Source: Acidipropionibacterium acidipropionici (GTDB lineage: Bacteria; Actinomycetota; Actinomycetes; Propionibacteriales; Propionibacteriaceae). From it: 64,000 nucleotides of DNA. Position 1 is the first letter of the stretch. Each line of letters opens with the position of its first letter. Below, piece by piece: positions 5,845 to 64,000 of this stretch. A program made the translations under genes and the position numbers. The DNA lies in assembly GCF_001441165.1 (NCBI RefSeq), contig NZ_CP013126.1:3563551-3627550 (forward strand), given 5' to 3'. Below the pieces are notes generated by a model. The model did no database searches, was not told the DNA's origin, and saw nothing but the letters and a program-made list of their open reading frames with translations.

Positions 5845-7878
<2,034 letters not shown>

Positions 7879-7882
<4 letters not shown>

Positions 7883-8424
7883 GACCTGGCGCCCGTCCAC
7901 AGGCTGGACAGGGATCCGGAGCCGGCCACGGCCAGCTGCTCGGGGTACCACTGCCCCAGCCTCGGGTTCACCTGGACGCCGAGCTTCTTGACGTCGGCCA
8001 CCAGGGTCGCGGCGTCCGGGGAGTTGCCCGCCACCGCGTAGAGGGAGGCCAGACGGCGTCCCATGTCGCGGCACACCGGCTTGGTGGCCAGGGCGCTGAG
8101 CTGGTTCTGGGTCATGATGACGTCGCGCTGGGCGTTGGTGAGGGTGCGGCCCGATCGGGCCAGCAGCTCCTCGCCGACGGCGGCCTGGACCTCCGTGCTG
8201 GCGATGACCTGCCTCGGCGACATGGTCTGGGAGCTGGCCAGATCCGAGCAGTTCGCCACATCCTTCTCGAAGGTGGCCATCGTCACGGCCCGGTCGCCGG
8301 CCTGCACCGCGGTGCTGCCCGAGGGGGCGCAACCCGCGGTCCCCAGGGCGGCTGCGGCCGCCACGGCCGCTGCCAGCCGCATCGGCCATCGGGTGCTGGT
8401 GCGATGGGGTGACGACGTCGTCAT
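7879..8424 (-). CDS. SurA N-terminal-like lipoprotein
   Basis: A 181-aa secreted protein with a signal peptide and lipobox (LGTAGC), so it should be lipidated at Cys and anchored outside the membrane. The following region (AVQAGDRAVTMATFEKDVANC and later helices) resembles the SurA N-terminal chaperone fold, and no PPIase domain follows. The ATG at 8424 is chosen for its AAGGAGAT ribosome binding site and because it gives a clean signal peptide. It lies between mfd and mazG and overlaps mazG by 4 nt. A periplasm-side folding role is inferred, not shown. Confidence 0.75.
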
Positions 8425-8482
8425 GCCTGAATCTCCTTGTCGATGCGCATCGGGGGTGGCCTGGGCCACAACGCCTGCGATC

Positions 8483-11400
8483 CTACGCCCGGGCCGGCGT
8501 GGGTTCTGCCTTGTGGGCGGGCGGGGCGACGGTGAGGACGTCGGCGACGACCCCGCGTGCCCATTCGAGCAGCTCGGCCCCGCCGAGCGGACGGCCGCCG
8601 ATCCGGGCGGTCCTGGGCTTGGGCACCAGCACCAGCCCGGCGTTGTCCTTGACCACCGATCCGGGGTACAGCCTCTTGAGTCGCATCACCCGCGACTCGG
8701 GCAGGTGGACCGGGGAGAAACGGATGGAGTTTCCGGCGGGCACCACCTCGCGGATCCCCCGCGACCGGCACAGCAGCCGGAACCGGGCCACCCCCAGCAG
8801 GGCCTCGACGGTCTCGGGCAGCGGCCCGTAGCGGTCGAGCAGCTCCTCGCGGATGGCGTCGACGTCCTCGTCGGAGCGCACCTCGGCGAGCCTGCGGTAC
8901 ATCTCCAGGCGCAGCCTCTCGGACTCGACGTATTCGGTGGGCAGGTTGGCGTCGACGGGCAGCTCGATGCGCATCTCGGGCTCCTCCTCGGCGTCCTCGC
9001 CGCGGAAACTGGCGACGGCGTCGCCCACCAGACGGATGTAGAGGTCGAAGCCGACGTCGGCGATATGGCCGGACTGCTCCCCGCCGAGCATGTTCCCGGC
9101 GCCGCGGATCTCCAGGTCCTTCATGGCGATCGACATGCCGGCGCCCAGGTCGGTGTGCTGGGCCATGGTGGCCAGCCGGTCGTGGGCGGTCTCGGTGAGC
9201 GGCTTGTCGGCCGGGTACAGGAAGTAGGCGTAGCCGCGCTCGCGGCCGCGGCCCACCCGGCCGCGCAGCTGGTGCAGCTGGGACAGGCCCATCCGGTCGG
9301 CGCGGTCGACGATGAGGGTGTTGGCGGTGGAGATGTCCAGCCCGGACTCGACGATGGTGGTGCACACCAGGACGTCGGCGCGGCGCTCCCAGAAGTCCAC
9401 CATGATCTGTTCGAGCTGCTTCTCGTGCATCTGGCCGTGGGCGGTGACGACACTGGCCTCGGGCACCATCTCGCGGATCCGGGCGGCGGTCTTCTCGATG
9501 TCCTGGACGCGGTTGTGGATGAAGAAGACCTGTCCCTCACGGGCCAGCTCGCGGCGGATCGCCGCAACCACCTGGCCCTGGTCGTAGGGGCCGGCGAAGG
9601 TGAGCACCGGGTGGCGCTCCTCGGGCGGGGTGGCGATGGTGCTCATCTCGCGGATGCCGGTGACGGCCATCTCGAGGGTCCGCGGGATGGGCGTGGCGCT
9701 CATCGACAGGACGTCGACGTTGACCCTCAGCTTCTTGAGGGCCTCCTTGTGCTCCACGCCGAAGCGCTGCTCCTCGTCGATGATCACCAGGCCGAGGTCC
9801 TTGAAGTGGATCTGGTCGGACAGCAGCCGGTGGGTGCCGACGACGACGTCGATGGTGCCGCGCTGGATGCCCTCCTTGACCTTCCGGGCCTCGGCGTCGG
9901 TCTGGAAGCGCGACAGCGAGGCCACGTTGACGGGGAAGCCGGCGTAGCGCTCGGAGAAGGTCTGGGTGTGCTGCTGCACCAGCAGTGTGGTGGGCACCAG
10001 GACGGCGACCTGCTTGCCGTCCTGGACGGCCTTGAAGGCGGCCCGCACGGCGATCTCGGTCTTGCCGTAGCCCACATCGCCGCAGACCAGGCGGTCCATC
10101 GGGACCACCTGCTCCATGTCGCGCTTGACGTCGGCGATGGTGGTGAGCTGGTCGGGGGTCTCGACGTAGGCGAAGGCGTCCTCGAGTTCGTGCTGCCAGG
10201 TGGTGTCGGGGCCGAAGGCGTGGCCCTTGGTGGCCTGGCGGGCGGCGTAGAGCTTGATGAGGCCGGCGGCGATCTGCTTGACGGCCTTGCGGGCGCGGGC
10301 CTTGCGCTTCTTCCAGTCGGCGCCGCCCATCTTGTCCAGGGCCGGAGCGTCGCCGCCGACATAGCGGGTCACCTCGTCCAGGGAGTCCATCGGCACGAAG
10401 AGCCGGTCCCCGGGCTGGCCCCTGCGGGCGGGCGCGTACTCGATGACCAGGTATTCGCGGGTGGCTCCGGCGACGGTGCGCTGGATCATCTCGACGTATC
10501 GGCCGACGCCGTGCTGCTCGTGGACGACGAGGTCGCCGGCCTTGAGCTCCAGGGGCTGGATCTGGTTGCGGCGCCGGGCGGGCATCTTCTTGGCGGCGCG
10601 ATCGGCGCCGGGGGCCTCTCCGGTGAGGTCGGCCGAGCCGTGCACCACGAGTTTGAGGCGGTCGCTGGAGAATCCCTGACGCTGGTGGGCCCGCACGATG
10701 TGGACGACCGGGTCGGTGGTGTCGGCGTCGACGTCGTCCTCAAGACGTGCGGAGACGCCGTGGTCGGACAGCACCTCGACCATGCGGCGTCCCAGGCCCT
10801 CCCCCTCGACGGTGAGGATGACGGTCCAGCCCTCCTCCAGGCGGGTCCTCATGGAGGCGACGGCGGATTCGAGGTCGCCGTGCCAGGGTTCGACGGCGTC
10901 GAGATGGAGGTTGAGGGTGTCGGGGGCGGTGCCGAGATCCTCGTCGGTGGCCTGGGAGGGGCCGACCGGGGCGTCGAGGGAGAAGGACGACATGGACCAC
11001 CAGGACATGCCGCGGTCCAGGCAGCGGGTGCGCACCTCGGCCAGGGTGCGGTATCCCGACGCCGCCAGGTCGATGGGGGCCTGTCCTCCACCGGCGGCGG
11101 CCGCCCAGCCGGCGTGGAGGAACTCCTCGGAGGTGGCCACGAGCTCGGCGGCCCGCGACCGGATGAGTTCGGGGTCCGACAGGATCACCAGGGAGTTGGC
11201 GGGCAGAACGTCGGACAGCAGCTCGATCCTGTCGACCAGGGCGGGGATGAGGGCCTCCATGCCCTCCACGGCCTGTCCCTGGCCGATCTTCTCGAGCATG
11301 TCGGCCAGTTCGGGGTGGTCGGGCAGCAGGGCGCGGGCGCGGGCGCGGGCCTCGGGGGTGAGGATGAGTTCGCGGCAGGGGGCGGCGACGACGTCGTCGT

Positions 11401-12085
11401 GGGTGTCGTCGGTGGAGCGCTGGTCGGCGACGGTAAAGGTGCGGATCTCCTCCACCTCGTCGCCGAAGAAGTCGATGCGGACGGGGTGGTCCAGGACCGG
11501 GGGGAAGACGTCGAGGATGCCGCCGCGCACCGCGAACTCTCCGCGTCGGGTCACCATGTCGACTCGGACGTATGCGGCGGCGACGAGTTCGGTGGCCAGT
11601 TCGGTGAGGTCGTACTCCTGGCCGACGGCGATGCGCACCGGGGAGATGGCGCCCAGATCGGCCACCTGGGGCTGGAGGGCGGCGCGGATCGGGGCGACGA
11701 CGACGGAGGGGGGCGTCAGCCCGTCGGTGCCCATGATCCGCCGCAGCACCGACAGTCGGCGCCCGACGGTGTCGGAGCGGGGGCTGAGGCGCTCATGGGG
11801 AAGGGTCTCCCAGGACGGGTAGTAGCAGACCTCGTCGTCGCCGAGCCAGGACTCCAGGTGGGCGGTGACCTCCTCGGCCTCGCGGAAGGTCGAGGTGATG
11901 AGCAGGATCGGCAGGCCGCGCCCCGACCCCTCCAGGCCGCGGGCGATCGCCGCCGTCACGGCGGGCCGGGACGGCTGGGCGGCGCCCAGGTCGAGGGTGG
12001 GGACGTGGCCGGTGAGGCTTTCCCGGATCGCTCGGGTGAGAACGGGCTCACGGGACAGAAGGGACACCAGACCGCCAAGACTCAC
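8483..12085 (-). CDS. mfd: Transcription-repair coupling factor Mfd
   Basis: This 1200-aa ATP-dependent translocase removes stalled RNA polymerase and recruits UvrA. Domains in order: UvrB-like module (about 1-350), CarD-like RNA-polymerase-interacting domain (LKAGDLVVHEQHGVGRYVEM, about 500), RecG-like helicase core with Walker A CGDVGYGKTE, DEEQ box (IIDEEQRFG) and SATPIPRTL, motif VI QLRGRVGRGRE, and the C-terminal TRCF domain (PVHLPESRVMRLKRLYPG). The start is GTG. A TAGGCT hexamer lies 6 nt upstream, so the gene is probably leaderless and separate from pth. Confidence 0.98.
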   Translation of the reverse strand: MSLGGLVSLLSREPVLTRAIRESLTGHVPTLDLGAAQPSRPAVTAAIARGLEGSGRGLPILLITSTFREAEEVTAHLESWLGDDEVCYYPSWETLPHERLSPRSDTVGRRLSVLRRIMGTDGLTPPSVVVAPIRAALQPQVADLGAISPVRIAVGQEYDLTELATELVAAAYVRVDMVTRRGEFAVRGGILDVFPPVLDHPVRIDFFGDEVEEIRTFTVADQRSTDDTHDDVVAAPCRELILTPEARARARALLPDHPELADMLEKIGQGQAVEGMEALIPALVDRIELLSDVLPANSLVILSDPELIRSRAAELVATSEEFLHAGWAAAAGGGQAPIDLAASGYRTLAEVRTRCLDRGMSWWSMSSFSLDAPVGPSQATDEDLGTAPDTLNLHLDAVEPWHGDLESAVASMRTRLEEGWTVILTVEGEGLGRRMVEVLSDHGVSARLEDDVDADTTDPVVHIVRAHQRQGFSSDRLKLVVHGSADLTGEAPGADRAAKKMPARRRNQIQPLELKAGDLVVHEQHGVGRYVEMIQRTVAGATREYLVIEYAPARRGQPGDRLFVPMDSLDEVTRYVGGDAPALDKMGGADWKKRKARARKAVKQIAAGLIKLYAARQATKGHAFGPDTTWQHELEDAFAYVETPDQLTTIADVKRDMEQVVPMDRLVCGDVGYGKTEIAVRAAFKAVQDGKQVAVLVPTTLLVQQHTQTFSERYAGFPVNVASLSRFQTDAEARKVKEGIQRGTIDVVVGTHRLLSDQIHFKDLGLVIIDEEQRFGVEHKEALKKLRVNVDVLSMSATPIPRTLEMAVTGIREMSTIATPPEERHPVLTFAGPYDQGQVVAAIRRELAREGQVFFIHNRVQDIEKTAARIREMVPEASVVTAHGQMHEKQLEQIMVDFWERRADVLVCTTIVESGLDISTANTLIVDRADRMGLSQLHQLRGRVGRGRERGYAYFLYPADKPLTETAHDRLATMAQHTDLGAGMSIAMKDLEIRGAGNMLGGEQSGHIADVGFDLYIRLVGDAVASFRGEDAEEEPEMRIELPVDANLPTEYVESERLRLEMYRRLAEVRSDEDVDAIREELLDRYGPLPETVEALLGVARFRLLCRSRGIREVVPAGNSIRFSPVHLPESRVMRLKRLYPGSVVKDNAGLVLVPKPRTARIGGRPLGGAELLEWARGVVADVLTVAPPAHKAEPTPARA

Positions 12086-57145: not shown

Positions 57146-57187
57146 CCTCGAACCCTGCCCGCAGGATTCGCGGATCAGGGTTCGAGG
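57146..57187. repeat. 12-bp inverted repeat at the edge of the defence region
   Basis: CCTCGAACCCTG (57146-57157) and CAGGGTTCGAGG (57176-57187) are perfect inverted arms with an 18-nt loop. It lies between the DHFR-like gene and the HTH gene, where base composition changes. It could be a terminator hairpin, an operator or part of an integration boundary; none is proven. Positions 57050-57145 hold no supported gene. Confidence 0.5.
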
Positions 57188-57634
57188 ATGTCACTTCTGG
57201 TGGACCTAGCGGGAGGCTTGTCGAAACCTGCCCCGTCGCTTGTTCGCATGGGGTCGCTGCACCGAACGATCCGCGCTCGCGCAGCGCGACCTACCCAACG
57301 TGGGCTGACACCGGTCAGCGTGCACCGCACCATCAGCGACGAGTCGCTCGACACCGTGGAAGGGCGGTACCACGCTGGCGAGACCCTCCGCGCCATCGCG
57401 AACGATGTCGGTCTTAGCCGTCACCGGCTGGCATCGCTGCTCCGGGAGCGCGGCGTCCGCATCCGCCGGGCTGCTCCTTCTCCGGCCGAGGTTCAAGAGA
57501 TGGCTCGGCGCTACCAGGACGGGGAGTCGCTCGAACGCGTTGGTCGGCGCCTGGGTTTCTCAGCTGGCACGATCCGGAACCACTTGATCGCCTCAGGAGT
57601 GACTCTGCGTGACCCGCAGGGTCGTGAGCGATGA
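57188..57634 (+). CDS. Double helix-turn-helix protein (recombinase-like HTH)
   Basis: Up to 148 aa. Two HTH units are visible: GETLRAIANDVGLSRHRLASLLRERGVRIR and ESLERVGRRLGFSAGTIRNHLIASGVTLRD. They resemble the C-terminal HTH of Hin/resolvase-type recombinases, but no catalytic recombinase domain is present. The protein is either a small DNA-binding regulator of the island or a fragment of a mobile-element gene. The start is uncertain (ATG 57188, ATG 57248 or GTG near 57317); residues before about 40 look non-conserved. Confidence 0.55.
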   Translation: MSLLVDLAGGLSKPAPSLVRMGSLHRTIRARAARPTQRGLTPVSVHRTISDESLDTVEGRYHAGETLRAIANDVGLSRHRLASLLRERGVRIRRAAPSPAEVQEMARRYQDGESLERVGRRLGFSAGTIRNHLIASGVTLRDPQGRER

Positions 57635-57723
57635 GGACCCGCGCACGGGCGCTCGGCGCGCAGGCGTGATGGGGTCGTCATGGAGTCCGGACGTTTGTCG
57701 GCACCGCTTGCGACAATGAACCC

Positions 57724-58749
57724 GTGAAGTTCAAGCGCCGCAACCTCGAAGCCCTCGGTGACCTCGTGGTGGGCAATGTAGGTCGTGACGACGCCGACAA
57801 CGAGGACGAGGCCAAGTACTTTCCGTATCGCTCCAGCATGTACATCACGGAGTTCTTCCAGGAACTCGACACGGAGTACCAGCACGACGGCTCAACTCGC
57901 CATCGCTGGGTGGCTGACGTGCTAGAGCAGATGCTGGCTGAGCCGCATAATGGTCCCACCCGCCCGCCGGAGATCTTCTGCCGACTGACCGCTCAGCTGA
58001 TGAGCCGGTCCGATCGGCATAACGAAGGACCTGACCGCTCGCGGGCGCTGGCCCAACTCAACGAGGTCCTCGGCCGGGAAGGTTTCGAGGCCTTCTACGG
58101 CGAGGACAATCACTGCTATCTCCGCCACGTCGGCACCCAGGCCATCCCGCTGCTTGCAGCAAACCCCCACCGGCCGTTCAGCAAAGCCGAGCAGGAACGC
58201 CGGCAGCTTTTGGCCAGCTACCTCGACCACTGCAGTGAGGACGACCTCATTGAGGAGGTGCTGCTTCCGCTGTTCCGGCAGCTCGGGTACCACCGCATCA
58301 CGGCGGCCGGGCACAAGGACAAGGCGCTGGAGTACGGCAAGGACATCTGGATGCGCTACACCTTGCCGACCCAGCACGTTCTCTACTTTGGTCTTCAGGC
58401 GAAGAAGGGCAAGCTCGACGCCTCAGGCGTCACCAAGGCTGGCAACGCCAACATGGCAGAGATTCACAACCAGGCGCTCATGATGCAGGCACACGAGATC
58501 TTCGATCCCGAGACCAACCGCCGGGTGCTGGTCGACCACGCGTTCATCGTTGCGGGTGGCGAGATCACAAAGGCGGCCCGCAACTGGCTCGGCAACGCCC
58601 TCGACGCCACCAAGCGCAGTCAGATCATGTTCATGGACCGCGATGACATTTTGAACCTATACGTCGTCACCAGCCTGCCCCTGCCCGAAGGAGCACTACC
58701 GGCTCCACCCCCGAACCCGTGGTCGCGGAGTGATGAACCGCCGTTCTGA
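57724..58749 (+). CDS. AbiJ-NTD3-like/PD-(D/E)XK nuclease defence protein
   Basis: A 341-aa protein. The N-terminal ~75 residues (YFPYRSSMYITEFFQELD ... STRHRWVADVLEQM) resemble the AbiJ-NTD3 module found in abortive-infection proteins. Residues about 175-260 look like a PD-(D/E)XK nuclease: Glu178, EYGKD (203-207) and QAK (225-227), followed by conserved ALMMQAHEIFDPETNRRVLVDH and GGEITKAARNWLG. The likely role is an abortive-infection or restriction effector. It is convergent with the helicase gene. The GTG at 57724 lies 6 nt after GACAAT, so it could be leaderless. Composition is less GC-rich than upstream genes. Confidence 0.7.
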   Translation: MKFKRRNLEALGDLVVGNVGRDDADNEDEAKYFPYRSSMYITEFFQELDTEYQHDGSTRHRWVADVLEQMLAEPHNGPTRPPEIFCRLTAQLMSRSDRHNEGPDRSRALAQLNEVLGREGFEAFYGEDNHCYLRHVGTQAIPLLAANPHRPFSKAEQERRQLLASYLDHCSEDDLIEEVLLPLFRQLGYHRITAAGHKDKALEYGKDIWMRYTLPTQHVLYFGLQAKKGKLDASGVTKAGNANMAEIHNQALMMQAHEIFDPETNRRVLVDHAFIVAGGEITKAARNWLGNALDATKRSQIMFMDRDDILNLYVVTSLPLPEGALPAPPPNPWSRSDEPPF

Positions 58750-58878
58750 GGCTGGCACCAGGCCTCATCGGCGTCATATGCGACAGACTGTGCCTGACAA
58801 GAGCTCAGACTCGGAGGAACAAGCGTGCGCCAAGGCAACATCGCCGAGCGCGCTACGCGGACTTTAATGGCCGTCGGA

Positions 58879-61452
58879 TCAATCGCCGGGTCTAATCCGG
58901 TTCTGGGTGAGCCGATCGATGACCTGACTTGGCAGGCAGCCATTCTCGGTCATGACTGATCTGACGTGTAGCTTCAGGGCCTGCTCCGATGCGATTCCGA
59001 CTGCAGTCGTCAGCAGGTCCGCCCAGACGACGGCAGCATCGCTGGCGATCTCCTTCGCGACTGCGGTAGAGGCCAGGTAGACGTTTGGGTTTGCTGCCTG
59101 AGAGTGCTGGGGATCTACCGACAACTTGTCCGACACGATGATTGCTGGGCTGCCCGCTGGCGGATGATCCATCCCTCGATCCGCCGCCAGTTGGTCGAGC
59201 TGAGTGTTGGCCTGGCGAACGTCCTTGAGCGGTAGCAGGCCATCGTCGTGTTCCTCGGACTTGGCCTCAATAGTCATCCAGATTGCAGTGCCCCATACCC
59301 AGGCAGAGTCGCAGCGGCCTTGGCCCTTTGGCTTGGAAGCCTCGGCTCCGAGGAACGATCCCAGAATCGTCAGGCCGCGTTCGTATTGGGTCGCCTCATC
59401 CTGGGCGAGACCCTCCTGCATCTCGGCGAGGGCAGCGTTGATCTGCTTTGGTTTGAGTTGGCCGCGCAGGCGGGCGACGACGTGATTCACAGCCACGATG
59501 TCCTCAGGAACGAGCGGGACGCTTTCGGCGTCGGGAAGCTCCCGCATCTCCTTGAGCCAGGTGCTGCGATTGGCGGCGAGTGCGGCGTCTCGAACAAGCC
59601 GTCGGGAACGTGACCGCTGGGTCTCGTCTTGGGCACCAAGGTGCAACCACATACCGGCGAGATACAGCAATAGGCCGCGATAGCCCCGTGTGGCCGCCGG
59701 CCCGACGTGCGGCACCGCTTCCTGGAGCTTCTCGCTAGCGCCAATCCAGTCGCCGCCGAAGGCCAGCTGCCACGCCTCAACCTCCAGCGCAGCAGCCTTG
59801 CCGAGAGCGTCGGTTCCTGGTGGCTCAACCTTGACGGCGTCCTGTCGGAATTCGGCCACCGCTGGCTCACCTTGCTCACGCCAGTCGGCCCCATGTTCAA
59901 GGAACATCTCGACGTTCTCTATCAGCTCGTCAGGTGCGACGCCCCTACTGTTCTGCCAACCGAACTCGACCTCGGCCTGCAACTCCGGTTCGAGCGCTCT
60001 GAGGTTCTCGGGCCGAGAGAAGTACTTCATGATGTCCGAACCGAGCACGACTACCACGGCGTAGTCGTTCGGACCACGAGTGCAGCGGCCGGCGCCCTGC
60101 ACGATGCGGGTGCGAAGGCGCTCGGCGAGAGCGGCATTGGCTTCCGCTCGCTCGCTCAGGAACCGCTCCTGCAGCCCGACGGCATCCGGTTTGCCACCGA
60201 GGACAACGATCCGGCAAGCGTTACCCGGCAGGTCGAGCCCGTCGTAGCGGTTGGCCAGGCCCAGCACCCCAGTTGGAGCCGCGGCGAAGGACTCCAAGCC
60301 GTGCTGTTCTAGGTGATCTCGCCCCATAACCGGCACGCCATCACCAGCCAGGGCCGCGGCTGCTGCCTCGGCGTTCGCGACAGTTTCCTGACTCAGCACG
60401 AGCGCCTTGTCGGTGAGACCGATGATCTGCTTGGTAAGTCCGATCGCATCCCCACCCTTCACCAGGTCCGGGAAGACAAACAGCCGACGACCAGAGCGCG
60501 GAGGTGTCTTGGTCGGAAGCGGCATTCTCACGATCTCCCGCCGGCCGAAGGCGCGTTCGAGCTCGCCGCCCGAGCCGAGGGTCGCTGACAGGTAGATGCG
60601 CTGCTTGGCCCGAGCGAAGATGTGGTTCTCGTAGGTCGGCGGGATCATCGGGCGGATCTGGATGCCACCGTAGGACAGGTAGACACAGCAGGCTGCCAGG
60701 CCTGACCGGATCATGGCGAGCTTGTACGAGTGAGGCTTGGTGAGACCGGCCAGTGCCGCGTCGAGCTTGGTCAGTGCCGTCTGATCGACCGCGGGCAGGA
60801 TGAGGCGCACCTGGTGGTGCGCGCCGGGATCGGGCTCGCCTTCCAGGCGCTGGATGAGGAGACCAGACAGGAACGGCTTCAGCGCTTCCAATACCTCGAG
60901 GTAGGCATCCTCGTCGTCGTAGCGACGGATGCTGATGCCGTACTCGTTTCCGACGAACTGCTCACCAGCATGAGCGTCATCGAAGATCAGGAGTCGGGGC
61001 TCGGGCAGCTTTGGGCTGCTGTTGAAGACGGCACTGTAGGTCGTGAGCCCGATCGCCTCGCCGCCCTCGACCGATGCCTCATCCGCGGGATCCCAGTGCT
61101 TGGCGCTACCGGTCAGGTTGGAGACCGGAACGCCCTCGCGCTCAGCCGTCGCCGCCACCTGACGCGCGAGCTGCTTGGTTGGAGTCGCGTAGATAACTGG
61201 CCCCGCGGTCTTCCGCCGTACCCACTCCGCGATGAGCAAGCCGGGTAGCGTCTTGCCTGTACCCGTCGGCAGTTCCAGCGCGAGATCTGGGGTGTCTTGG
61301 TGGCCCTCCGCGTAAGCACGAATGACGTCGCCTTGATGCAACCAGAGCGAGTCAACAGCGGCCGTGGTCCGTGGCAGAGTTCCGCTGAGGTACAGCTCCT
61401 CCGGCGACGGGAACTCTTGAACCGTCCGCTTGGTCTTGCCCAGGAATGCCAT
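58879..61452 (-). CDS. Rad3/DinG-like DEAD/DEAH helicase with C-terminal nuclease-like domain
   Basis: An 857-aa SF2 helicase. Walker A PTGTGKT (62-68), Walker B variant DDAH (158-161), SAT (289-291), the XPD-like YDGLDLPG (403-410) and motif VI QGAGRCTR (452-459) form a complete motor. A helical region (about 490-700) follows. Residues about 705-760 look like a PD-(D/E)XK site, with Asp715 and EAK (729-731) and then a Gln-rich helix (RQANTQLDQL). The family is probably a phage-defence helicase-nuclease. It is downstream of the NACHT gene on the same strand, and no recognised four-Cys iron-sulphur cluster was seen. Confidence 0.75.
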   Translation of the reverse strand: MAFLGKTKRTVQEFPSPEELYLSGTLPRTTAAVDSLWLHQGDVIRAYAEGHQDTPDLALELPTGTGKTLPGLLIAEWVRRKTAGPVIYATPTKQLARQVAATAEREGVPVSNLTGSAKHWDPADEASVEGGEAIGLTTYSAVFNSSPKLPEPRLLIFDDAHAGEQFVGNEYGISIRRYDDEDAYLEVLEALKPFLSGLLIQRLEGEPDPGAHHQVRLILPAVDQTALTKLDAALAGLTKPHSYKLAMIRSGLAACCVYLSYGGIQIRPMIPPTYENHIFARAKQRIYLSATLGSGGELERAFGRREIVRMPLPTKTPPRSGRRLFVFPDLVKGGDAIGLTKQIIGLTDKALVLSQETVANAEAAAAALAGDGVPVMGRDHLEQHGLESFAAAPTGVLGLANRYDGLDLPGNACRIVVLGGKPDAVGLQERFLSERAEANAALAERLRTRIVQGAGRCTRGPNDYAVVVVLGSDIMKYFSRPENLRALEPELQAEVEFGWQNSRGVAPDELIENVEMFLEHGADWREQGEPAVAEFRQDAVKVEPPGTDALGKAAALEVEAWQLAFGGDWIGASEKLQEAVPHVGPAATRGYRGLLLYLAGMWLHLGAQDETQRSRSRRLVRDAALAANRSTWLKEMRELPDAESVPLVPEDIVAVNHVVARLRGQLKPKQINAALAEMQEGLAQDEATQYERGLTILGSFLGAEASKPKGQGRCDSAWVWGTAIWMTIEAKSEEHDDGLLPLKDVRQANTQLDQLAADRGMDHPPAGSPAIIVSDKLSVDPQHSQAANPNVYLASTAVAKEIASDAAVVWADLLTTAVGIASEQALKLHVRSVMTENGCLPSQVIDRLTQNRIRPGD

Positions 61453-61646
61453 GTCCGTCGATGCCTGCCTGTCGTCCGAGTGCCTGTTGCTCTGCTCCAG
61501 CTCTCGCCGCTCCGGACCAGGCGGTCATCGTGGCTCTGAACTGATGCCGTCATCACGGTACTTGAGCTGGAGCGCTCGTGGACAATTCCGTACTCCTGAG
61601 GTCCGCCGACGCGAGGTCACCGGAACGCCGGGCGCGAACGCCGTTT

Positions 61647-64000
61647 CTATCGGTAGACGGGCTTTGCGTCGACTTTCAGCCACTTCCCATCCCGGGCCAC
61701 GCTGAGCAGCGAGGGCACAGACTCCGGGCTGTCGCGCGACGCGGGCGCTACACCATCTCGCCCTGTTGTCGACGGTGCCCAGGTTCGGAGTTGGTTCAGA
61801 GCAGCCAGCTCCGGATTGTCCGTGGCCGCTGTGACTGGCCGGTCCTTCAGCCAACCGTAACGAGCGATCTGTTCGGCGGCTCGGAGGACCGTGCCGCGAC
61901 GTGACGCAGGGAGCTGAGTGAGCACGGACTCCAGTGATGACCACAGCTCTGTCACGACAGGCGAGGACGCTACGCACCACAGAGCAAGTACCCACTCGGC
62001 TCTGGCCAGGTCGTCGTCAAGGGCATCGAGCTGTTCCCGCCACCATTGGGAGTTGCGGTTGTTGGCGCGGACTTGCGCGAGGAGTTCGGACGGGTGGCTC
62101 GTGTCCCCGAAGGGCCCGGCACCGGGCTTCTTCACATAGGCAGGCGATAAGGGTGACGCGGCGCCGATGATCGCGATCTCGGACACGAGCCAGCGGCGTC
62201 CGACGTGGTCGTGCAGTGCAGCGGCCGTCTCAGCCCAGGGGAATGTACTGCCCTTCTGGCCCGCTTTGAAGGCTCGCTGCTTGGCGATCTGGGTGTACGC
62301 AGAGCCTGCCCGCCGGAGCTGGCTGATCGCCTCGTTTCGGCGCCGCTTGGCCTTCTCGTCACCGCCGACGAACCCGGTGTTGGAACTTGTGAGGAAGTCG
62401 CCCGGCGACAGGGCGACCGCGACTTGCGCCGGCATGGAACGCGTCGATGTCACGCAGGGGCATTCCCCCTCTAGGACTGCGTCGAGAAGCGCTGCTTCGA
62501 GTGAGCTTCCTGACGGGGGGACCAGACCGGCGCTCAGGACCAGCTCGGCGGCACCATTGGACAGGTCCATGTGCTCGAGCGACGCAATGAGGCCTGCGCC
62601 GGCCTCGCACTGAGCGCCGATCTTGAGCCATGCGTTCTGCTCGGGTGTGCCGATGGCTGCGGTGAGTTGGGCATGCCACCACGCACCGAACTGGCTGCGC
62701 TGGTTCAACAGTTCGCGCAGAGCGCGTACTCGCTGAGCGTTGCCCCTATCGGCCGGGTCCTTGCTGACCAGGGTAGTGAGCCGGACCCAGGTGGGATCAG
62801 GTCCGTCCTCGTCCGGGAGGTCGGGCAGTCCGGGCAGCGAGATGATGTCGCGACGGTCTAGCGCCGAAAGTAGGACCGTGATCCCGAAGTCGGAGCAGAG
62901 TGCGGTGAGAATTTTGCGCGCTTCGCGGGGGCGACGCAGAAACACACCATCGGTGAGGAGGGCCCATGCGGCGAGATAGGAAGCGGGTGAGGTGCTCTGC
63001 GCCAGCTCTTGCTCGATCCCCGCGGTGAGCGTATAGATGCCGTTGCCCTTGGCGTTGCCGCCGTAGAACCTGGCGGTGTTGAGCCAGTACGGCCGCCGAA
63101 GCAGCTCGCGCAGCACGGTCGCACTGTCGAAGTCCGTGTTGTCCTCGCCTGCGTTGTGGTAGAGGAACCGGGCCGCGAAATACTCCCGTAGAGAGAGCAC
63201 CTCAAACTCGTAGGTTCCGTCAACCTTGCTGGTCAGCGCCCACAGCCGATCGCTCGCTCCTTCGAACAGCTGGTCGACGATCGACTCGCGGTTGCCATAG
63301 GTGCGTTGGAAGTGCCGCATTGCTTCCTTGAGTTCGTCCACGCTCATACGGCCGTTGATCTGTGATTCCTCGGTGTGTGCGTGGAGGTACCAGCCGAGGA
63401 ATGGAATGATCTCAAGCAGTTCTTCCTTGTGGTCGCGCACCGCCTTGGGATGCTTGTTCGCTTCGCGGGCCAGGAGAAGCTCGACGTACTTGTCGTAGAG
63501 ATCCGTACGCTGGGTCGGCGTGGCAGCACCCTGTTGGTGGAGGAGATCCAGCAGGATCGTGAGCTGCATCGGGTTGCCGGCGAGTTCGTTGATGTAGGGC
63601 TCGCGGCTCTTATCCTTAAAGCTCTTCCGCAAGGCGCGACCGTCCTTGCCCTTGATCCCCCGGACCGCGCACCATTTGCGCAGGTACGTGTCCCGTTGGT
63701 CGACGGTGAGTTGGTTAAGGGTCACGATCTCGAACAGGTTGGTTGACGGCTCGGGAAGTTCACCGGCGCTGGGGCGCGTGGTGACGACGACCTTGGGCGG
63801 GTCGGAGTATGCCTTCCCGCGACTGACGAACTTGTCGATCTCTCTAACGATCCTGCCGCGCATGGTGCTGCTGCCGACTTCGTCGAGCCCGTCCAGCACG
63901 ACGAGGCTGGGGACTCGCTCGAAGATGTCCTGCACCGTCTTCGCATCGGTGGTGATTCCGCCGCTCTCGTGCGCCATCAGGTCGGCGAGGAAGCACTCGA
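61647..64000 (-). CDS. NACHT-domain STAND NTPase (5' end outside the window)
   Basis: The frame stays open to the window edge, reading ECFLADLMAHESGG before the first visible Met, so the N-terminus and Walker A are missing. The visible Walker B is the hallmark LDGLDE of NACHT NTPases (SLVVLDGLDEVGSS), followed by VVVTTRPSAGELPEP (sensor 1) and a helical ELAGNPMQLTILLDLLHQQG segment. A long helical C-terminus without an identifiable effector runs to residue 776. In bacteria such proteins act as phage sensors with a variable N-terminal effector, which here lies beyond the window. It lies 194 bp upstream of the helicase gene on the same strand. Confidence 0.8.
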   Translation of the reverse strand, partial: ECFLADLMAHESGGITTDAKTVQDIFERVPSLVVLDGLDEVGSSTMRGRIVREIDKFVSRGKAYSDPPKVVVTTRPSAGELPEPSTNLFEIVTLNQLTVDQRDTYLRKWCAVRGIKGKDGRALRKSFKDKSREPYINELAGNPMQLTILLDLLHQQGAATPTQRTDLYDKYVELLLAREANKHPKAVRDHKEELLEIIPFLGWYLHAHTEESQINGRMSVDELKEAMRHFQRTYGNRESIVDQLFEGASDRLWALTSKVDGTYEFEVLSLREYFAARFLYHNAGEDNTDFDSATVLRELLRRPYWLNTARFYGGNAKGNGIYTLTAGIEQELAQSTSPASYLAAWALLTDGVFLRRPREARKILTALCSDFGITVLLSALDRRDIISLPGLPDLPDEDGPDPTWVRLTTLVSKDPADRGNAQRVRALRELLNQRSQFGAWWHAQLTAAIGTPEQNAWLKIGAQCEAGAGLIASLEHMDLSNGAAELVLSAGLVPPSGSSLEAALLDAVLEGECPCVTSTRSMPAQVAVALSPGDFLTSSNTGFVGGDEKAKRRRNEAISQLRRAGSAYTQIAKQRAFKAGQKGSTFPWAETAAALHDHVGRRWLVSEIAIIGAASPLSPAYVKKPGAGPFGDTSHPSELLAQVRANNRNSQWWREQLDALDDDLARAEWVLALWCVASSPVVTELWSSLESVLTQLPASRRGTVLRAAEQIARYGWLKDRPVTAATDNPELAALNQLRTWAPSTTGRDGVAPASRDSPESVPSLLSVARDGKWLKVDAKPVYR

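Follow-up and report, generated by a model that had tools for sequence, protein, structure and literature searches.

Gene content and composition of the locus

We analysed a stretch of 64,000 nucleotides from Acidipropionibacterium acidipropionici (assembly GCF_001441165.1, contig NZ_CP013126.1; hereafter the window), which corresponds to positions 3563551-3627550 of a one-contig 3.65-Mb genome. Its last part, positions 57146-64000, carries four genes that we refer to as HTH (148 amino acids (aa)), NUC (341 aa), HEL (an 857-aa helicase) and NACHT (a 1122-aa nucleoside triphosphatase, NTPase). We put at about three in four the probability that they form a defence island, carried by an element acquired horizontally and composed of separable modules in which HEL, NACHT and NUC most likely each act alone. 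Loci and genomes used for comparison carry L and G numbers, respectively.

57188-57634, + strand: HTH, open frame, 148 aa
57724-58749, + strand: NUC, 341 aa, with an AbiJ-NTD3-like N-terminal domain (~1-150) and an Mrr-type PD-(D/E)XK domain (~151-325)
58879-61452, - strand: HEL, 857 aa, Hna-like superfamily 2 (SF2) helicase with a C-terminal PD-(D/E)XK nuclease (PADLOC PDC-S28)
61647-64000 (in-window part), - strand: NACHT, PD-(D/E)XK-like N-terminus and NACHT NTPase; full length 1122 aa, extending to window-equivalent position 65015
57635-61587: NUC+HEL block of 3953 bp, missing from genome G180 (L107)

An earlier reading of the sequence (the original prediction) had described these genes as a candidate defence island of foreign-looking composition and had proposed that they form an undescribed system. 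All four are present as open frames where it had placed them, and they are more than chance occurrences, since homologues of every one exist elsewhere and the motifs described below are intact. The G+C content of 57146-64000 is 0.640, compared with 0.687-0.716 (mean 0.702) for 202 overlapping stretches of the same length from the rest of the window, which bears out the compositional claim. The HTH product matched Pfam HTH_58 (1.2e-9), as expected from its assignment, and NACHT and HEL are indeed co-directional, with 194 bp between them. After fetching the flank, we located full-length NACHT at L004:6198-9566 (window 61647-65015), giving 1122 aa from the chosen start codon.

HEL is a distant homologue of Hna

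HEL is a distant Hna homologue and, as far as its sequence tells, most likely acts like Hna. Passages of PMC13381803 describe Hna as a single effector of 845 aa that works by abortive infection and consists of two helicase domains and a C-terminal PD-(D/E)XK nuclease; it is a 3'-5' single-stranded DNA (ssDNA) exonuclease whose inhibition is held by ATP and which is activated by a phage single-stranded-DNA-binding protein (SSB), and the K729A exchange abolished the exonuclease. When HEL was compared by phmmer with the Hna structures reported there (PDB 10UJ and 9YKJ), residues 55-614 matched at E 6.8e-31, with the C-terminal nuclease lying outside the match. The PADLOC model PDC-S28 covered residues 11-853 (E 4.9e-93), and the helicase core matched DEAD (1.9e-8). 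In 12/12 aligned sequences, the window's included, the ATPase motifs GxGKT (G64, G66, K67, T68), DDAH (158-161) and QGxGR (Q452, G453, G455, R456) were invariant, as were the nuclease residues D715 and E729-x-K731, confirming the description of HEL as a helicase with a nuclease-like C-terminus. The rhizobial homologue of locus L110 has the sequence ECK aligned at E729-x-K731, and this corresponds to ECK 727-729 of Hna. The assignment is weakened by the low identity of HEL to the L110 homologue, only ~21%.

By analogy with Hna, HEL would be a helicase-nuclease kept inactive until phage replication releases it, the trigger in Hna being the phage SSB according to the same passages. Once released, its 3'-5' ssDNA exonuclease would act and the infection would abort.

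NACHT resembles nuclease-armed bNACHT proteins in layout

When the full-length protein was used, PF05729 matched NACHT above its cut-off (E 1.4e-6; 28.7 bits, cut-off 26.7), in agreement with the original prediction; the in-window part alone stayed below the cut-off. The NTPase motifs GQGKST (Walker) and LDxLDE are conserved in 8 aligned homologues, and the N-terminus displays a PD-(D/E)XK-like pattern (D42, G44, D46 and Q60-V61-K62) in 8/8 aligned sequences, the window's included. This N-terminus gave a weak match to a PADLOC restriction endonuclease (REase) model (E 2.1e-4). No nuclease family was matched in Pfam, and a sequence search of the PDB returned nothing at E<=0.01.

Passages of PMC12169576 report that bNACHT25 and bNACHT32 carry an N-terminal PD-(D/E)XK DNase, of which D48 is required for defence. 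Judged by analogy, NACHT is most likely a nuclease-armed sensor built like bNACHT25. Triggering of the NTPase would then lead the N-terminal PD-(D/E)XK domain to cut DNA.

NUC combines a putative AbiJ-NTD3-like domain with a nuclease

The window's NUC protein had no match at E<=1 in Pfam, NCBIfam or PADLOC (2023 models, with later-described systems outside their coverage), nor in the PDB by sequence at the same threshold. Its relatives, where annotated in the records examined, are called hypothetical protein, and no description was found in open-licence literature.

In an alignment of 64 members, the nuclease core is nearly invariant: E-x-G-K-D is present in 64/64 and Q-x-K in 63/64, with E203, G205, K206, D207 and K227 found throughout and Q225 in all but one. 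Individual members reached named families weakly, with Mrr_cat matched by 8/64 (best E 0.0099), AbiJ_NTD3 by 8/64 (best E 0.012), PADLOC Stk2 by 8/64 (best 1.9e-4) and PADLOC AbiJ by 2/64 (best 0.0041). When the profile of residues 1-150 was compared with six AbiJ_NTD3 domains, it scored 30.5, whereas the best of 100 column shuffles scored 23.7 and the C-terminal domain, used as a control, 13.5. We judge the original description of NUC as an AbiJ-NTD3-like protein with a PD-(D/E)XK domain to be a good reading, with an AbiJ-NTD3-like signal that is weak and exceeds the controls.

The AlphaFold2 model of NUC has a mean predicted local distance difference test score (pLDDT) of 81.7; parts of 195-205, a segment next to the catalytic motif, score under 50. 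It shows a mainly helical N-terminal domain that ends in two strands and is followed by an alpha/beta nuclease domain. The top two PDB matches found by Foldseek were FokI (E 4.1e-4) and MspJI (2.0e-3), both with low template-modelling (TM) scores.

Several results count against this reading of NUC. The AbiJ_NTD3 profile match spans 62 columns at a probability of 40%. Fold matches were weak, with query-normalised TM scores of at most 0.31 among the matches listed (PDB and viral models), and the searches made returned no named homologue. Comparison of the NUC profile with one single AbiJ_NTD3 protein gave a probability of 8.5%. The gathering score of AbiJ_NTD3 (PF18860) was not reached, the inspected alignment scoring 13.3 bits against a cut-off of 32.5.

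According to passages of PMC3710099, AbiJ-NTD3 is an N-terminal domain of ~140 aa that occurs fused to various effectors, HEPN, REase and kinase among them, and domains of this type have been proposed to contact viral targets or to keep the effector inactive. On account of these descriptions, we suggest that the AbiJ-NTD3-like domain of NUC would sense infection or hold the protein inactive, and that the Mrr-type domain would degrade DNA. NUC is most likely an unnamed stand-alone defence nuclease, at times travelling with Hna, its part in defence being deduced from domain architecture.

NUC is rare, mobile and strongly conserved

Scanning the genomes of 84,980 species yielded 210 stretches encoding a NUC relative, and we retained the best 80. 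Among these best 80 of 210, Actinomycetota, Pseudomonadota, Bacteroidota, Cyanobacteria, Acidobacteria and Bipolaricaulota are represented; 78 loci remained after removal of L147, which has a stop, and L185, whose length is not divisible by three. Within the window's order NUC occurs in 8/293 genomes, one merely as a fragment, and a class-wide search was positive for the window's own genome only (1/394). Using an E. coli plasmid copy as the query, we detected NUC in 191/5426 complete E. coli genomes; 189 of these copies were 80-90% identical to the query and are possibly clonal. Two of the E. coli chromosomal loci have prophage-type surroundings: in L124 dicB/hokD and tail-fibre genes are close to NUC, and in L125 it adjoins pinE and a restriction-modification pair of type II.

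NUC relatives were also detected by tblastn in 46 plasmid records. Matches covering at least 80% of the query came from 35 records, 34 of them at 60-88% identity; the other was 49% identical, its match being split into three pieces. Among the partial matches were a Ketogulonicigenium plasmid (41.5% over 64% of the query) and four E. coli plasmids (46% over the N-terminal half), and these lower identities mean that more diverged relatives of parts of NUC exist. A search of 50,697 phage records found none; nine IMG/VR contigs carried a relative.

The 63 relatives aligned with the window's NUC share 61-91% protein identity with it. We compared agreement at fourfold-degenerate sites with that predicted by base composition: it was 0.300 versus 0.268 for the 45 sequences at 60-70% protein identity, 0.380 versus 0.336 for the 14 at 70-80%, and 0.508 versus 0.339 for the four above 80%, which are less saturated. 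Near-saturated fourfold sites beside similar proteins indicate that purifying selection, more than recent transfer, preserves NUC. Recent spread as the chief cause of the conservation was therefore rejected. The aligned set derives from conserved-stretch searches and the best 80 of 210 stretches, so it may lack members that have diverged further; the plasmid tblastn search is free of that bias.

NUC of the window genome is 62% and 64% identical to two E. coli copies, compared with 66% for RecA. By this measure NUC is about as conserved as RecA, though rare and mobile. Defence proteins usually diverge fast, which makes a rare, mobile and slowly evolving NUC an oddity.

Such RecA-like conservation, unusual in a defence protein, would suit a DNA-processing enzyme of mobile elements, for example one acting in plasmid entry or transfer, with no part in defence. 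The neighbours of NUC lend this idea some weight, with relaxase homologues in 5/103 loci outside the window (L109, L126, L128, L129 and L139) and an integrase family as the commonest neighbour (6/78 loci). Nevertheless, we consider it unlikely: in a small and unsystematic sample, the E. coli and Kosakonia copies examined are part of the cargo of prophages or plasmids, next to restriction, Abi or toxin-antitoxin genes, the 50,697 phage records hold no relative, and NUC has a putative AbiJ-NTD-like domain. A stand-alone defence nuclease remains our preferred reading of NUC.

The four genes were not found as a set in the other loci examined

HEL homologues are present in 23/293 genomes of the window's order and NACHT homologues in 30/293, eight of them strong. 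To compare HEL neighbourhoods we used 20 stretches (18 kb) from 19 of the 22 other genomes, leaving out G143, G094 and G069. L033 had a NUC gene nearby and L045 a NACHT homologue, so 18/20 held neither. The original prediction had asked whether NACHT and helicase homologues recur as neighbours, and one case in 20 does not sustain that idea. The six closest HEL relatives in the order (68-90%, L033-L038) had no NACHT homologue in their 18-kb stretches. On plasmids, no other member of the set lay within 8 kb of the closest HEL relatives found (70% and 67%), and the two closest NACHT relatives found (72% and 71%; L230, L231) had neither HEL nor NUC within the same distance. In both L033 and L036, a pair of unclassified genes (products of 254-307 aa and 486-500 aa) lies immediately upstream of the helicase.

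In the three genomes where HEL and NACHT homologues lie within reach of each other, the distance is ~3 kb in G056 and ~11 and 12 kb in G228 and G238, whose neighbourhoods have many genes in common. The NACHT homologue of G056 is located 2.7 kb upstream of a split HEL, in the same direction (L045). The split HEL homologue of that locus (7234-11487) is interrupted by a recurrent gene, probably a transposase, and in G238 the NACHT homologue is in pieces with other genes between them and a relaxase adjoining (L101, 7593-14516).

Across genomes, HEL co-occurred with strong NACHT homologues in 3/7 cases outside the window's own genome (p=0.011) and with all NACHT homologues in 3/29 (p=0.38, not significant); the figures for HEL and NUC were again 3/7 and p=0.011, and none of the p values is corrected or takes kinship into account. 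Co-occurrence of HEL and NACHT somewhat above chance can be explained by island sharing, which would produce the same signal.

Genome G180 (L107) offers a direct comparison. There, HTH (89% DNA identity, 86% at the protein level) joins the 3' end of NACHT (82%) with 2 bp between them, and NUC and HEL are absent. The junction indicates that the 3953-bp NUC+HEL block was gained or lost as a unit. The block may have been inserted in the window or deleted in G180. Taken by itself, G180 would look like an empty site, but in two Corynebacterium loci (L109 and L139) decayed remnants of HTH lie immediately upstream of NUC, collinear with it, and with these a deletion fits equally well.

HTH-related proteins (27-43% identity) were found near NUC in 5/78 loci (L132, L140, L141, L144 and L167), three of them matching HTH clearly. 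The relatives at L140:9041-9694, L141:13458-14078 and L167:7340-7795 lie in otherwise unlike loci. These recurrent HTH proteins may regulate NUC or may just be cargo that mobile elements often carry.

That HTH, NUC, HEL and NACHT constitute one undescribed defence system appears highly improbable to us. Their adjacency in the window, with NACHT and HEL co-directional, the arrangement in G056, the 3/7 genome co-occurrence and the recurrence of HTH-like proteins near NUC speak for it. They are outweighed by the lack of a second case of all four genes together among the loci examined, by the different neighbours of each gene's close relatives, by the decay of HTH beside NUC in Corynebacterium, and by the membership of HEL in a known single-gene system, Hna having been reported to protect alone in passages of PMC12445080 and PMC13381803. 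On the neighbourhood comparison, the linked NACHT-helicase system of the original prediction was rejected. Two outcomes had been named as refuting it, homologues that never co-occur and genes that each match a stand-alone system; the findings went largely that way, with HEL matching stand-alone Hna, although strong NACHT homologues and HEL do share genomes to the extent given above.

NUC and HEL as a possible pair

Separability is less clear-cut for NUC and HEL. We searched 104 NUC loci, including the window, some from the same genome and some short, with a helicase profile and found a helicase in the flank of nine (the window, L033, L110, L131, L141, L144, L160, L168 and L170). The orientation of the two genes varies. 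In Tsukamurella L160 and Nocardia L131 they run in the same direction, with gaps of ~28 and ~54 bp. The arrangement is convergent in the window and in L141 and L144, and divergent in L110, L033, L168 and L170. The neighbour of NUC in L110 (Ensifer plasmid pC) matches Hna over its length (E 1.9e-122); the helicases of L168 and L170 are nearly identical to it and lie ~5 kb from NUC. Two helicases are broken, that of L131 being split between frames and that of L144 truncated.

Among 1067 neighbour genes of the 78 loci, the helicase family occurred in five loci (six with L144). Similar counts for the integrase family (six) and HTH-like proteins (five) show that the helicase is not uniquely frequent. 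A PADLOC scan of 150/472 non-redundant neighbour genes of NUC was dominated by redundant kinase models; its output lists 25/159 families, allows no count per gene and is given no weight.

The joint recurrence of HEL and NUC exceeds that expected of scattered genes, so full independence of the modules may be too strong a statement, and this counts against our reading. One could imagine a two-gene module, with NACHT separate, in which NUC cuts or nicks DNA and so provides ends for the Hna-like exonuclease, or else guards it. The nine helicase-bearing flanks, with the Hna match on Ensifer pC, the close co-directional arrangement in L160 and L131, the rank of HEL among the most frequent neighbour families, the gain or loss of both genes as one block and the 3/7 genome co-occurrence are consistent with such a module. 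In contrast, 95/104 loci have no HEL in the flank examined, and G170 and G190 possess HEL (86-88%), with NUC found neither nearby (L034, L035) nor elsewhere in the genome. The varying gene orders argue against a fixed operon, the HEL partners of NUC come from branches only 20-22% identical, the co-occurrence of HEL with strong NACHT homologues gives an equal p value, and Hna is reported to be protective on its own. We therefore hold such a NUC-Hna partnership to be possible but quite unlikely, and retain independent modules as the better account.

Mobile-element setting

Past the window end, a DprA-like gene is split by a transposase gene and followed by a TrwC relaxase; the island is therefore probably part of a mobile or formerly mobile element. 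The defence-island claim of the original prediction is supported. The DprA/ShosA-like gene appears interrupted by an rve-family transposase gene (405 aa) at L004:10266-12642 (~65.7-68.1 kb in window coordinates). The TrwC/MobF-type relaxase lies at L004:12720-16265, outside the window, and its N-terminal start is duplicated, at 93% identity, ~2 kb further on (L004:18243-18376).

Interpretation and comparison with known systems

Taken together, a tempting multi-gene system resolves into a helicase-nuclease of known type, a NACHT protein of known type and one unnamed, strongly conserved nuclease family; a linked system is unlikely. NUC merits attention as a gene that, where annotated in the records examined, is called hypothetical and that is encoded in 210 stretches among 84,980 species and in 191/5426 E. 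coli genomes with RecA-like conservation, and its recurrence beside Hna provides a concrete pair for the question of synergy. More speculatively, NUC could found an undescribed single-gene family of anti-phage nucleases under core-gene-like constraint that repeatedly joins Hna-type helicase-nucleases as a more effective pair. We regard this as doubtful; the constraint would then reflect a target that hardly varies among phyla, such as a host repair protein, SSB or a DNA structure.

Each protein has a recognizable counterpart from which it also departs. Like Hna of S. meliloti, HEL is a single protein with SF2 helicase halves and a C-terminal PD-(D/E)XK domain containing E-x-K, and the lengths are similar (857 aa versus the 845 aa given in passages of PMC13381803). 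HEL has no cysteine between Walker A and DDAH, and Hna is described there as having no iron-sulphur cluster. In contrast to these likenesses, HEL sits on a distant branch. NACHT shares with bNACHT25 and bNACHT32 (bNACHT clade 6) an N-terminal PD-(D/E)XK domain, a central NACHT and a long C-terminal part, a likeness of architecture.

The N-terminal domain of NUC is, like AbiJ-NTD3 (PF18860), ~140 aa long and composed of alpha and beta elements, and N-x-x-L-x-x-x-G-x-E occurs at the matching place in NUC and several of the six AbiJ_NTD3 domains. It differs in scoring below the Pfam cut-off and in its partner, an Mrr-type nuclease instead of the HEPN domain of AbiJ. The E-x-G-K-D and Q-x-K core of NUC resembles that of Mrr-type REases (PF04471) and of the FokI and MspJI cleavage domains, from which NUC is set apart by a different N-terminal domain and by having no Pfam match over the cut-off.

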